64,000 nt of DNA from Urechis unicinctus (lineage: Eukaryota; Annelida; Polychaeta; Xenopneusta; Urechidae). Under the pieces are notes generated by a model. The model made no database searches. It saw only the letters and a program-made list of their open reading frames with translations, and was not told the origin of the DNA. Location of the stretch: NCBI GenBank assembly GCA_034190875.2, contig CM067349.1, positions 29,647,671-29,711,670 on the forward strand, given 5' to 3'. How positions within the stretch are numbered: the first letter of the stretch is position 1; each line of letters begins with the position of its first letter. This document shows, piece by piece, positions 17,789 to 61,115 of the stretch. The position numbers and the translations under genes are program-made.

Positions 17789-19054
17789 CATGTGAGCATA
17801 CTTGTGTGTATGTATATTAGGGTTGGTGTCTGTGTTTGTGACCGCTAGATGACATCGCGCTGTTATGATATTCATACCTATGTCTGTAAAGAAACTAACA
17901 TGTTCACTTAGAATGTCATTTAGAAATCGGAGTTGTGCTAAATGCCCCTCCCAAGTCTCATCACGCACAGCGTTGCGTCGCAACAAATACAAGACTCAGA
18001 GTAAACAATTAAGAATCGATCGCAACATTCAGCTTCAATGCCGCAATCCAAACTCGGAAGCTTACGCATGGCATGCACGTTCCCATACAGCATACATTGA
18101 TAAGCCTCTTGGTTAGGCAGCGGTTCAGCGCACTAATCATTAGCTGTGGCTTCTTTTTATATTGCCGGAAACGGATACCAATAATTGGAGAGGAGAGGAA
18201 ATATCAGGTGGATGTGCGCGCGGTTAAAGCCTGTGTAAGGGCAGGGCGGAGACGAGGCTTCAAGCTCATTGCGTGCCGGCACGCCAGCTGGTAACTGTTG
18301 TCTGCGGACATCAGTCATTGAGTCTAGTAGCCTATTGTCTGTCGACTACCGCGGCAGCTCGATTAGGGGCGCGGACAGACAAGGAGTCCAGGCAAAGCAG
18401 GGCAGAGGTAAAAAGAGAAGGATGGGAATAAGTCAATTATTCATACGCGATTGTCACCAATTGCCATGAGTCGATACTGTCAACGGTGGTCTGTGCAACC
18501 TCTCGTGCGCACCACCAGCAAGCGCATCAACAAAGGACGCCGGTCACGGCTGCACTTGACAGTTGTGAGGGTATAATGTTTATTGCCTTCATACTGAAGA
18601 GTACGGTTTAGGGCATGCACGAGCATTAAGAATGCATGATACACCCCTCAGACGCAAGGCACGTGGTTCAAGTTCTATTGTCACCACCAGACTGACTTAA
18701 CACAGTAGGCGCGTGGGCTATAGGGCACTTAGCTCTGAGTAATCTGCCATGGAGCATCGAAATGCTTTCTCACGTCTGTATATAAGGCTTAACAAAAAGT
18801 GGTTGTGGCTATAATTATAGCTCATGACATTCAATGAAGAAGTACAAACCAGCACACGTCACGGACAACATCCACACATCGCGATGTGTCTTCAGTTGAA
18901 ACCAACGAGACCCCATACAGCGATTTTGTGTATAACGCTAATTCGTTTGAAAAAGGTCGAAAATCAGTACATTTTATATTGTCTGCATTTTATGGCAAAC
19001 CGGACGCATTTCTGGTAGCGTAGGCTAAGTCATTATGCTAAATCAAATGACACC

Positions 19055-19098
19055 ACCCCCACCCCCCCCCCTCCCCACCCCCACCCCCTTTCCCCCCG
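19055..19098. repeat. C-rich tract
   Basis: CCCCACC-type run of 44 bp immediately left of repeat block X1. Confidence 0.9.
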
Positions 19099-19104
19099 AG
19101 AAAG

Positions 19105-19335
19105 CCCTGATCAATGGCACTCGCAACCTGCCCTATTGTCATTGAAATGTCCCCGAGTGAGCTAGATCCCCCATAAGGGCGCAGAATGAATGGCCGCGCC
19201 GGAGGTTATGAGGCAGTGAGTCAGCGGCAAAAGACTTCCTATGCAGCCGGCTAATTGAGGGAGGATCAGGCTCGGTGAGGAGTGACACGGTATATACCAA
19301 TCACCGCAGACGACGGACCCCTCGTCGCGGATCAT
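19105..19335 (+). repeat. Dispersed block X, copy 1
   Basis: Shares GGCACTCGCAACCTGC, TTGTCATTGAAATGTCCCC and GCGCCGGAGGTTATGAG with copies at 37.4, 38.95 and (inverted) 60.9 kb. Similarity continues leftwards: 18830-19020 matches 38705-38900. No coding potential is visible. Confidence 0.8.
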
Positions 19336-57529: not shown

Positions 57530-60500
57530 AACCGGGCATCGCAAACAAGACGCAGAGTTAATATTTCACCGCACAATATGCATTTAGAAATGATATGTTA
57601 TTACCCTTTTCAAGAGGTTTGGTATTCTAACTTCGTGTCAGTGAATTGCATGTAAATCATCTGCCATCATCCTACCGGTTCTGAGCGCGGTTTATGGATC
57701 AGATCAGTAGGGTATTACGCGGAATACTGTTATCACATTTTAACGTCGATTAGATAATGGCATTCATAAATGTAAATTGCTATTATCATTTGGGTGGCTG
57801 AGACAGAAGTAAGTTGGCTTTTTCGTGCAAAAAACTGACAAAATTGGCAAAGCTTCCTTAATTTCAGTAGTTTATCTTATTTTTGTTCTGTGTAGCTACA
57901 GTAAGAAATTGGTCCCTATAAGATATATGGTATATTCTGTTTTCATATTCGATTACAAAATACATTTTTTTGTGGCTTGATCTGTGGAGCCTCAGGGTCT
58001 GCAAATCGCAATTTTTTTGTGATATCAAGAGCTAGACAAACTGAAAAATGTTGGAATTTCTATAAACCCCTATTCACGTCTATTCCCTTATGTCGTCATC
58101 GAGAAGCATGCTAAGTGGAAGTAAAACCTATTGAAATCAATAACACGGGTGTGGATTGATGCATATCTGATTAACCAAATGCCTGTTAACTTTCCATGGG
58201 AAATCCTGATACTAAGTATTGTGCCTACAAACTGGTGGTCAACGCCTTTTCACTACTTCCAGTGACATATAGAGATTTTGCGGTGTTCTCTTATTGTAGT
58301 AAGTATCAGAGGCATGTCGGTATTACATACCTTAGCATCCAGACCTCCAATTTAACCAATTGCCATACAATGGAATTCGGCCTCCGGCAGGTTGACCGCC
58401 GGGACACAACTCAACTAAGACCAGCTGAACATAACAGAAGATGTATGGAAAATACAAAGTATGTGAATTATGATTGCATTGCGTTTGTTTCTTGATAATT
58501 AATAATAATCTGGAAAATAAATAATCTGACATAGCAGTCTTTCTGCTTTGGTTTGTTTGTTTGAAGGCTTGCATGCATGTCAGTTCTCTTTGCATTGTGA
58601 TAGGCAACGAAATGATTGCCTGATACCTTTGTTTATTTTCCAATACATTTAAGTCTCTTTTAATCTATTCATGATTTGCTACTCTGGAGAAAAACATTAA
58701 ACAGCGTGTACATAAGATATCAGATCATTTGCTTCCGAGATTGAACGGCAAAATAAAACAATGTCTTTGACTTAAGTTGAGAGCCAAAGATATATTTGTA
58801 GCGTAAGGCAAACAACCTCATGTAATAGTATATAGCACACGGACACCAAATTGACCTAATTAGAATATTACTTTTGCATTTCAAGGAGCTCAAAACGTTT
58901 GTGTCGATAGCGAATATGAAGGCAGTGTTAACAGTATACTATTGCTGTTTATGAAAAATAGACATGCTCATTTTCAGGCATAATCCAAATCAGTCATTCA
59001 TTGTGGAACGAAATAATGCGCTGCATAATGGATCTATTTCAAAAGCGCGCACTCTCACACACGTTGCACACACAACTTCCTTTTTTAATTTGATGACTAT
59101 AAAGTGGCAACATCATCAACTGAAGTACAATGCGCTTCCGCCTTCACATCCAGGGAATCCTCATTGCGGTCTGTACAAAGGAACCCCAGCCAAATGTTAT
59201 ATCTGAATACACAGTAGTATATCTGAGGCCAATTCATTCATTGATAGGAGTTCTGGCCATTGGAATGAATGTCATAACGTTATTTGTTTAGGATTGGACT
59301 GATGTTTTGGCATCAAAACGCAAAGATCCTTGTGTGTTCACTCAACAACATTACACAAATGGTTTGCCAGATATCATTCGGACAAATCCAGCAAAATATA
59401 AAAGTAAATTTTCATTAATCGATGTTGTGCCAACTGAAATGCTTTCATGGATTTCTGTAAGGAACTTCTACTGTTGTTACGAAACGATATCGTGTCACCG
59501 CGAAATTTGTCAAAGTAGCCGGTAGCGGGGAAAGTCGCTTCGTCCTCTCGAATAACAATAAAATAATGACTTCCCAACTGACTGACGCGACGGAGTTGAT
59601 AACGGGATTCCTCCTTAGAGCAGCATGTCATGGGCTCGAAATCAATACCCTGTGTTAATTGTCAAGCAAATTACACAAAACCATAAAGCTTTATATGAAT
59701 TTGGAGGTTCAGTATTTAATAACACAAGCACACACACATTTGAGTGTGTAAGCAGTCCGAATTAACCATTCTTCTCTAAATTATTCATCGATACCTGACA
59801 ACAATTGTGCTTCCCCTTCGTCCGCTTAGTAACTTGTAAGTGACCAACCTATCAAAAACATGGCGATTCTATATGTCTTAATTTACTTTTGAACAAAGAA
59901 CACATAAAAGAGTAATAAGATTGAGTTTAAGACATACGCGATGCTACATGATTTGCAGCTACTCGAATTATATTGGACAGAATCTCTTGTGTATCTGAGT
60001 GCCCTCAGAGGTCACTTTTGAGTCCATTGTCATGGCCCCTTATTGTTGCCGATTTGTTTAAGGTACTGCCATGGCTAAAGGAATGCATAAAATATCATTA
60101 CCTCGTGTTGCAATTTAAAACATGCGTTTATCAATATTGAATTTTTGATGGTTCTTTTTCGCTTTTATGAGGTTCATCAGTTATGTATTGTGAGAACCAA
60201 ATTTACTTAATGAATGTGAGGATGTTGAGATTAAGCAAAGTACTTGGATCTGGTCATGTGAGTTATGGAAGAAGTAGACCCGATTTGCCAAGTGTCTATA
60301 CGATGGTCGTAAACATTCCTGATATATGACCCACCGATAGTGGTAATGAACAACTGGGCTGGGAATATTAACCGTTGACGTCTGCTAAGTTTGTCTAATG
60401 GCAGCCTCCTGGCACAATCATGTTTCTTGTCAAAAATACCAACATAACACGATCGTTCTAAACATAAATAAAGCACTGGCAACTGCTGACAGAAGTTAAT

Positions 60501-60880
60501 CTTGCTGACAGAAACCAGTAACTGATCTTGGCATGTCTGCTGGTGAGCTGTATATGAAAACCTTCCCGGGCAACCAACTCATCCATGATAAGAAGATTGT
60601 GCACAAAACACAGTAATAAGTCGCATGAGCGATCATATGCGCAAGATTGCAGAGCCAACGTCCTCTGCCACAACAGTGTACTGCATGCGATGGGCTTAAT
60701 GTATTATATTTGCACGGAATGATAATGAAAGGCTAGTACTTACTATGCAAGTATAGGCACACTTGGTTAAAAGGACAATTTTTAGCAACTGATTTAAAGT
60801 CACTGATTCTAATAAATTGCTTAAACACACAAAATATCGTGAATCACAGTGAATTGCAGTGTTTAATCATGGTATAAGAT
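57530..60880. other. Gene-free 3' flank of the plus-strand SLC22 units
   Basis: No exon recognised. 60359-60475 shares several stretches (GACGTC-TAAGT-GTCTAATGG, ACATAAATAA) with 45850-45960. 60660-60700 in reverse complement resembles the block Y end (GCATGCAGTACACTGTTGTG). Confidence 0.4.
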
Positions 60881-60884
60881 GATC

Positions 60885-61115
60885 AACGGTTTGCAGTGAG
60901 GAGTCAGCCTATGGACCTATTTCGTGTCACTCCTCGCCGAACCAGACACCCTATCCCCACTCCACCCAACTAGACAGCCGAAAGGGAAGTCGTTTCGTCT
61001 CCTGACACACTACCTCATAACCTCCGGCGCGGCCATTCATTCTGCGCCCTTACCGGGGACTGCATTGACTAGGGGGCAATACATTGGCAATAGAGCAGGT
61101 TGCAAGTGCGAGTGA
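60885..61115 (-). repeat. Dispersed block X, copy 4 (inverted)
   Basis: Its reverse complement carries GAGGAGTGACACGAAATAGG, CGCCGGAGGTTATGAGGTAG and GTCAGGAGACGAAACGACTT. It lies downstream of the plus-strand SLC22 copies, as X1-X3 lie downstream of the minus-strand ones, so it was carried along when a unit inverted. Confidence 0.8.

Follow-up and report, generated by a model that had tools for sequence, protein, structure and literature searches.

Duplication, inversion, decay and probable exon-wise exchange in an SLC22-type gene cluster of the annelid Urechis unicinctus

A cluster of SLC22-type transporter genes occupies about 42 kb of a 64-kb window of the Urechis unicinctus genome (GCA_034190875.2, contig CM067349.1, positions 29,647,671 to 29,711,670 of the forward strand; the window is this whole stretch of 64,000 nucleotides, and all coordinates are counted from its first base), with two intact genes, here called A and B, among decayed copies of the same gene. 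The cluster as a whole is very probably explained by duplication of a gene-carrying unit, inversion of one stretch, decay of most copies and exon-wise exchange between A and B. An earlier note on this DNA had read it as a compact record of tandem duplication, inversion and loss, a description which is sound but incomplete, as A and B appear to be partly homogenised and a dead copy has probably been duplicated once more. Gene models were read from the DNA alone, in the one assembly named above. The two intact genes comprise the following exons.

23494-26309, minus strand, gene A, intact SLC22-type gene with exons read from the sequence
25893-26309, 25595-25698, 25355-25509, 25062-25230 and 24796-24928, minus strand, exons 1-5 of gene A
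24579-24667, 24262-24485, 23989-24173, 23719-23855 and 23494-23563, minus strand, exons 6-10 of gene A
52739-55325, plus strand, gene B, intact SLC22-type gene with exons read from the sequence
52739-53155, 53229-53332, 53420-53574, 53705-53873 and 53968-54100, plus strand, exons 1-5 of gene B
54228-54316, 54418-54641, 54757-54941, 55035-55171 and 55256-55325, plus strand, exons 6-10 of gene B

Exon lengths (417, 104, 155, 169, 133, 89, 224, 185, 137 and 70 nt) and end phases are identical in A and B, AG acceptors stand at exons 2-10 and GT donors at exons 1-9, and each gene holds an open frame of 560 codons plus stop, which bears out the earlier description of two intact 560-residue genes with ten exons of the same length and phase. 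The introns are short (73-194 nt), the two proteins are identical at 420 of 560 residues, and a weak-looking donor, GTACC, at exon 5 of A and exon 2 of B calls for some caution on the exon plan. Since exons 2 and 3 equal in length those of human SLC22A5, given as 104 and 155 bp in PMC13026843, the ten-exon plan is probably an old one in the family.

Both genes are predicted to encode SLC22-type transporters. Pfam Sugar_tr is matched by A and B with 118.6 and 138.5 bits (cut-off 22.3), and the best family by far is NCBIfam TIGR00898, the SLC22-type model of the major facilitator superfamily (MFS), which is matched whole-length (positions 5-506 and 4-506 of 506) with 382.2 and 396.7 bits and expect values (E) of 3.9e-114 and 1.6e-118, scores that lie below the curated cut-off of 550.75 bits. 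In a comparison of B with sequences of solved structures, the best 26 of the 33 matches at E<=0.001 are named SLC22 members, OCT1, OCT2, OCTN2 or URAT1 (E 5e-74 to 4e-24), followed by bacterial GlcP (4e-11) and six SV2A sequences. Equally, as in SLC22 proteins, A and B have a large loop of about 98 residues between transmembrane segments (TM) 1 and 2 (hydrophobic peaks at 32-50 and 149-167), with cysteines 61, 90, 122 and 144 and the glycosylation motif N-x-S/T at positions 109 and 116, and both possess the MFS motif after TM2, GYxSDRFGRKK, at 169-179 and ELFPTEVRxIGxG before TM11 at 460-472. Whereas SLC22 proteins have 12 transmembrane helices, simple hydropathy gives 15 and 17 overlapping peaks, not resolved into single helices, for A and B. 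The central-loop signature reads ESPLW at 286-290 in both, with Leu in place of the Arg of ESPRW in aligned OCT1, OCT2 and OCTN2; the name ESPXR, used for this signature in PMC4633038, does not fit even these three letter by letter. With the SLC22 family (OCT, OCTN, OAT) A and B have in common a match along the whole TIGR00898 model, the solved-structure matches (of B), both motifs and the lengths of exons 2 and 3, and they differ from it by a TIGR00898 score under the cut-off, ESPLW for ESPRW and the lack of a clear OCT, OCTN or OAT subclade.

With respect to substrates, Arg479, a position that we take to lie in TM11, aligns with Asp of OCT1 and OCT2 and with Arg of OCTN2, so that the Asp characteristic of the OCT subclade is not found; OATs presumably carry Arg at the equivalent position likewise. 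Being as in OCTN2 and unlike the Asp of the OCTs, this residue favours anions or zwitterions as substrates of A and B. The proteins would be plasma-membrane SLC22 carriers operating by alternating access, transport as well as substrate class being predictions.

Further copies were sought by tblastn with the exon peptides of A and B (E<=1e-3, A and B queries counted separately), which gave 39 matches outside A and B, none in each of 10 second-order Markov sequences and none in the reversed window, so that chance similarity as the source of the copies is ruled out. The decayed copies are listed below.

28008-28670, minus strand, P1, remnants of exons 8 and 9 from peptide and DNA matches
33010-33650, minus strand, P2, exon 1, 3' part of exon 2 and exon 8, without exons 3-7
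42181-43053, minus strand, P4, exon 1, 3' part of exon 2, the final bases of exon 7 with intron 7, and exon 8, without exons 3-6 and almost all of exon 7
46324-46395, minus strand, isolated exon-4 fragment (E 4e-5 with exon 4 of A, 7e-4 with exon 4 of B)
47054-47997, minus strand, P5a, end of exon 1, exon 3 and exon 5
48518-49111, minus strand, P5b, exons 7, 8 and 9 with introns
56030-57631, plus strand, P6, exons 1, 3, 7, 8 and 9

Two of these exons fail the peptide threshold and are carried by DNA matches, namely the exon-1 end of P5a (peptide E 0.034, DNA E 4.6e-17) and exon 8 of P6 (peptide E 0.009, DNA E 4.4e-5). At E<=0.1, 50 peptide matches lie outside A and B, 11 of them above 1e-3, a range in which the controls match too, and for this reason the matches at 11944, 36460, 42004 and 42771 (two queries) were discarded. 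The loss of exons from the tandem copies is plain from what is missing in P1, P2, P4, P5a, P5b and P6. At least seven decayed copies had been counted in the earlier note; the six multi-exon copies are firm and a seventh is reached only if the lone exon-4 fragment counts as one. Arrays of AGGT-type tetranucleotides occur within the cluster at 31797-32380 and at 48026-48512, the latter precisely in the gap that separates P5a from P5b, and may have helped unequal exchange.

The copies are embedded in flanks that were duplicated along with them. Self-comparison of the window on both strands, with tandem arrays masked and a threshold of E<=1e-4, gave 72 off-diagonal matches, and 10 control sequences from a first-order Markov model gave none apiece. 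One of the 72 belongs to a separate element at 62281-63776; among the other 71, 35 lie outside gene bodies at both ends and 68 are on the strand expected if about 51.7-61.4 kb is inverted relative to the rest. In plus-strand direction, units on the minus strand follow the order 3' flank, gene, 5' flank, and order and strand are reversed from 51720 to 61312. The flank blocks obtained by self-comparison are as follows.

18852-22411, minus strand, 3' flank blocks of the unit of A
29764-30596, minus strand, 5' flank block of P1
33650-34819, minus strand, 5' flank block of P2, containing a repeat of 127 bp
35371-41877, minus strand, 3' flank blocks of the unit of P4, partly doubled (37349-37736 and 38894-39310)
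43054-43817, minus strand, 5' flank block of P4
44160-46745, minus strand, 3' flank blocks of the unit of P5, with one weak unexpected-strand match at 45844-45969
51720-52738, plus strand, 5' flank of B, with inverted matches to 35217-35548, to the P2 and P4 flanks and to 29764-30325
57920-61312, plus strand, 3' flank blocks of the inverted stretch with B and P6

The recurrence of flanking blocks in step with the copies and the inverted unit formed by plus-strand B and P6, both put forward in the earlier note, are hence upheld, the 5' and 3' blocks being in register, even if the letters X, Y, Z and V assigned to them cannot be mapped one to one; the span given there, 18600 to 61115, needs slight adjustment, as the blocks begin at 18852 and run to 61312. 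The direct repeat in the 5' flank of P2 (34443-34569 and 34689-34815, 98.4% alike) is a recent local duplication. An origin of the copies as retrocopies or as cargo of transposons might be suggested by the absence of most internal exons from P2 and P4, but is scarcely credible because intron sequence is kept in P4, P5b and P6 and flank sequence, 5' as well as 3', is shared in register among copies; whole units were duplicated, as had been claimed. An artefact of collapsed or chimeric haplotypes, conceivable with a single assembly and a window rich in simple-repeat arrays, is very improbable too, given that the copies are mostly 20-40% diverged outside the converted exons and bear different deletions and that a permuted tract in exon 2 of A (see below) possesses two substitutions and one gap of its own versus B. 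Against an inversion as simple as that described stand three weak matches (E 4e-8, 3e-5 and 5e-5) on the unexpected strand.

The 3' parts of exon 2 in P2 and P4 begin at the same base (CGGAAACATC), both copies break about 38-46 nt into intron 2 and resume before exon 8, and the left end of the deletion of exons 3-7 agrees within about 10 nt. In P4 the sequence picks up again about 17 nt short of the exon 7 end (alignment score 139, maximum of 56 in 100 shuffles), and in P2, as read by eye and with a weaker alignment (61 versus a maximum of 43 in shuffles), about 75 nt further on. Furthermore, the 5' flanks of P2 and P4 group with a bootstrap of 97 (four sequences, B, P1, P2 and P4; identity 0.78-0.80). 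Common deletion ends and flank grouping together suggest that the ancestor of P2 and P4, already dead, was probably copied again; one deletion before this duplication followed by further loss in P2 would be the simplest story. It has to be weighed against this that the right deletion ends differ by about 75 nt, which leaves room for independent losses. In exon 1, P4 is nearer to B (0.80) than to P2 (0.72), a nearness that can follow from slow evolution of B under selection.

The relationship of the two survivors is more intricate than that of two diverging duplicates. Over the whole gene, Nei-Gojobori estimates of nonsynonymous (dN) and synonymous (dS) divergence between A and B are 0.156 and 0.680, and the ratio of 0.23 argues for maintenance of both genes under purifying selection. 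The dS of exons 1 to 10 amounts to 0.945, 0.591, 0.744, 1.021, 0.157, 0.777, 0.718, 0.146, 1.438 and 1.226, exons 5 and 8 being low against 0.591-1.438 in the other eight. Converted-looking tracts comprise 153 of 560 codons with dS 0.101 and dN 0.041, and the other 407 codons show dN 0.205, dS 1.12 and a ratio of 0.18. Among the 396 codons that encode the same amino acid and have a silent option, 121 differ between A and B, and the clustering of the identical ones (sum of squared runs) is reached in 17 of 100000 permutations; the longest identical run, 24 codons, is reached in 1464 of 100000, and long runs fall in exons 1, 2, 5, 7, 8 and 9. Around exon 8, the identity of A and B in intron 7, exon 8 and intron 8 is 0.43, 0.92 and 0.32, and that of B and P4 is 0.71, 0.81 and 0.58. 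Judged by a background of 20 shuffles made from a single intron pair (mean 0.45, maximum 0.52), the A and B introns are at shuffled level and those of B and P4 still alignable; inside exon 8 the order of relatedness flips. On the other hand, B and P4 are closer in exon 1 (0.80) than A and B (0.74), and with P4 and P6 in the quartet the tree joining A with B is rejected in favour of B with P4 by the approximately unbiased (AU) test (p-AU 0.014); the best tree of exon 8 joins A with B. Low dS in exons 5 and 8 makes A and B a silent-site mosaic and, combined with the unlike introns beside exon 8, points to partial homogenisation of the two by exon-by-exon gene conversion. Identity at silent sites and in introns departs from that of neighbouring segments and from the copy tree, as gene conversion leaves it, the clash of trees being only partly significant.

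Several observations weigh against conversion or weaken its support. The tracts used to compare dS inside and outside were picked from the same data. With P2 replacing P4 in the exon-1 quartet, the test does not reject A with B (p-AU 0.061), nor does it reject the alternative trees of exon 8 (p-AU 0.059 and 0.055 with P5b as fourth sequence, 0.52 and 0.18 with P6). In addition, the 150 bp before exon 1 are more alike between A and B (0.54) than between B and P4 (0.44), contrary to the expected nearness of B and P4; the self-comparison matches suggest that P4 lacks about 0.1 kb before exon 1, so the stretches compared may not correspond. Without any conversion, exons 5 and 8, the 3' half of exon 7 and the 5' part of exon 2 would be alike because silent sites are constrained too, through splice enhancers or codon choice, or because the mutation rate differs regionally; the ending of the alike stretches near the exon edges at exons 5 and 8 speaks for this. 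This is quite improbable, however, as B and P4 align in both exon-8 introns where A and B do not, and yet A and B exceed B and P4 inside exon 8; moreover, exon 8 does not show a low dN/dS (0.47). For exon 2 such an explanation is already hard to keep, for the tract in question brought the tail of intron 1 and the start of intron 2 of B into A with 188 of 190 bases identical, which exon constraint cannot explain.

This tract in exon 2 involves the following features.

25637-25826, minus strand, 190-nt element in A (intron 1 and 5' part of exon 2), corresponding to B 53291-53366 followed by B 53176-53290
53176-53374, plus strand, donor segment in B, bounded by both copies of TTTCATTG, 191 bp apart
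25785-25843, minus strand, exon 2a of A, vestigial or candidate alternative exon of 59 nt with acceptor TTTTCAG and donor GTACC

Aligned with rotated B, the element shows two substitutions and one 1-nt gap; with the unrotated B segment only 92 of 178 aligned bases match. It is an exact one-turn circular permutation of B at the 8-bp repeat TTTCATTG, which is the sole repeated 8-mer in B 53151-53420 and the point at which the two A segments join. The outer ends of the element are adjacent bases in B (53290/53291), and the transfer hence comprised exactly one turn; separate movement of two pieces into exon 2 of A is ruled out, as the pieces abut exactly in B. Since A possesses the intron-2 start of B within its own intron 1, transfer in exon 2 ran from B to A. 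Tandem duplication of the exon-2 segment in A or an ancestor, followed by ordinary conversion from B, would account for exon-2 material standing twice and in direct order in A, but the B-identical stretch is exactly one period long, which would need an accident, and this course of events is considered unlikely.

The transfer may be envisaged as repair of a break by copying: exon 2 of A would have been broken and B copied from the matching base; after one slip back at the TTTCATTG repeat, or after going once round a small circle, copying would have rejoined A at the very base it had left, with a B-type start of exon 2 and the in-frame remnant exon 2a as the outcome in A. Slip during copying and a 191-bp circle give the same product, so that the product cannot discriminate between them. 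An exact circular permutation closed at microhomology is nevertheless what insertion of a circular intermediate leaves behind, and it might tentatively be proposed, as a possible but doubtful reading, that the element is the fossil of a microDNA-sized circle cut from exon 2 of B with its intron edges, closed at TTTCATTG, which then entered by recombination the corresponding exon of A, the inverted paralogue at a distance of about 27 kb. If true, a tiny DNA circle would have acted as gene-conversion donor between germline paralogues, with the 5' portion of a working exon replaced and an in-frame second splice choice, exon 2a, created. By frame arithmetic (104-59=45), exon 2a would keep the frame from exon 1 to exon 3 when spliced in place of exon 2, and use of both together would shift the frame. 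As judged from its translation, a product with exon 2a would be 15 residues shorter and devoid of the LVCSDKW stretch, and a working alternative exon is therefore unlikely. Upstream of the element, A keeps 17 nt behind a usable acceptor, which may be its own old start of exon 2.

Duplications by circular intermediates, with rotated block order in the derived copy, are described in PMC7450558 for human segmental duplications and in PMC3245284 for tilapia vasa, and the copy in A is equally rotated relative to its source in B. The differences are considerable, as the eight human pairs listed measure 22-3918 kb and have no junction homology (PMC7450558), in contrast to one turn of 191 bp at TTTCATTG, and the tilapia circle of about 28 kb went to a distant new site (PMC3245284), in contrast to the matching exon of a paralogue. 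No small exon-to-exon circular case was found among the titles and abstract openings of a thin, partial literature search. In whichever way it arose, the permuted tract is a base-exact case of a slip-or-circle event that remodelled a working exon.

Taken together, we infer an order of events in which several duplications, with unequal exchange as the simplest mechanism, multiplied an SLC22-type gene along with its flanks as a unit of very roughly 8 kb of DNA, and the stretch 51720-61312 carrying B and P6 became inverted. Most copies decayed by deletion, with the dead ancestor of P2 and P4 probably copied again, A and B remaining under purifying selection. Exchange between A and B would have continued exon by exon after the introns had grown unlike; because introns no longer matched, tracts would be largely confined to exons, namely exons 5 and 8, the 3' half of exon 7 and the 5' part of exon 2, with exons 1 and 9 as weaker candidates, and outside exon 2 a direction of exchange could at best be conjectured. 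The unlike introns beside near-identical exons illustrate that conversion can become restricted to exons once introns have decayed.

Birth-and-death accompanied by gene conversion is a well-known kind of gene-family history and duplication clusters of SLC22 genes are known as well. The family picture is unchanged by the cluster, whose history is instructive but ordinary. In PMC4633038, mammalian SLC22 genes are reported as clustered, with locations that suggest duplication, and the word tandem is absent from that text. As in the mammalian clusters, related SLC22 genes lie side by side in the Urechis cluster; in difference to them, it consists mostly of dead copies and has one inverted stretch. 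Among the titles of a partial literature search, neither this cluster nor gene conversion within SLC22 clusters was reported.

Other features of the window lie beside the cluster or at its edge. Among 26 single frames compared with Pfam (four of them SLC22 exons or copies, two entered twice), only two matches besides SLC22 were obtained. A minus-strand frame at 7723-8049 matches the SUEL galactoside/rhamnose-binding lectin domain (PF02140, E 2.7e-7, 31.3 bits versus a cut-off of 31.4) and probably represents an exon of a separate gene next to the cluster; a weak IGFL match at 60234-60578 on the minus strand, within the 3' flanking DNA of the inverted stretch (E 0.01, 16.3 versus a cut-off of 25 bits), is most likely due to chance. 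No Rfam family at gathering score and no tRNA by ARAGORN (bacterial code) were found in the window. The element at 62281-63776 is 1.5 kb long, starts with GCTTGACAATGCC and has terminal inverted repeats of 179 bp that are 98.9% alike; its flanks show no obvious target-site duplication and the one frame compared, of 86 amino acids, has no Pfam match. Finally, many simple-repeat arrays are spread across the 64 kb, and two minisatellites, both of about nine copies, are located at 5860-6246 (42-bp unit, 93% match) and 12424-12924 (52-bp unit, 96% match).

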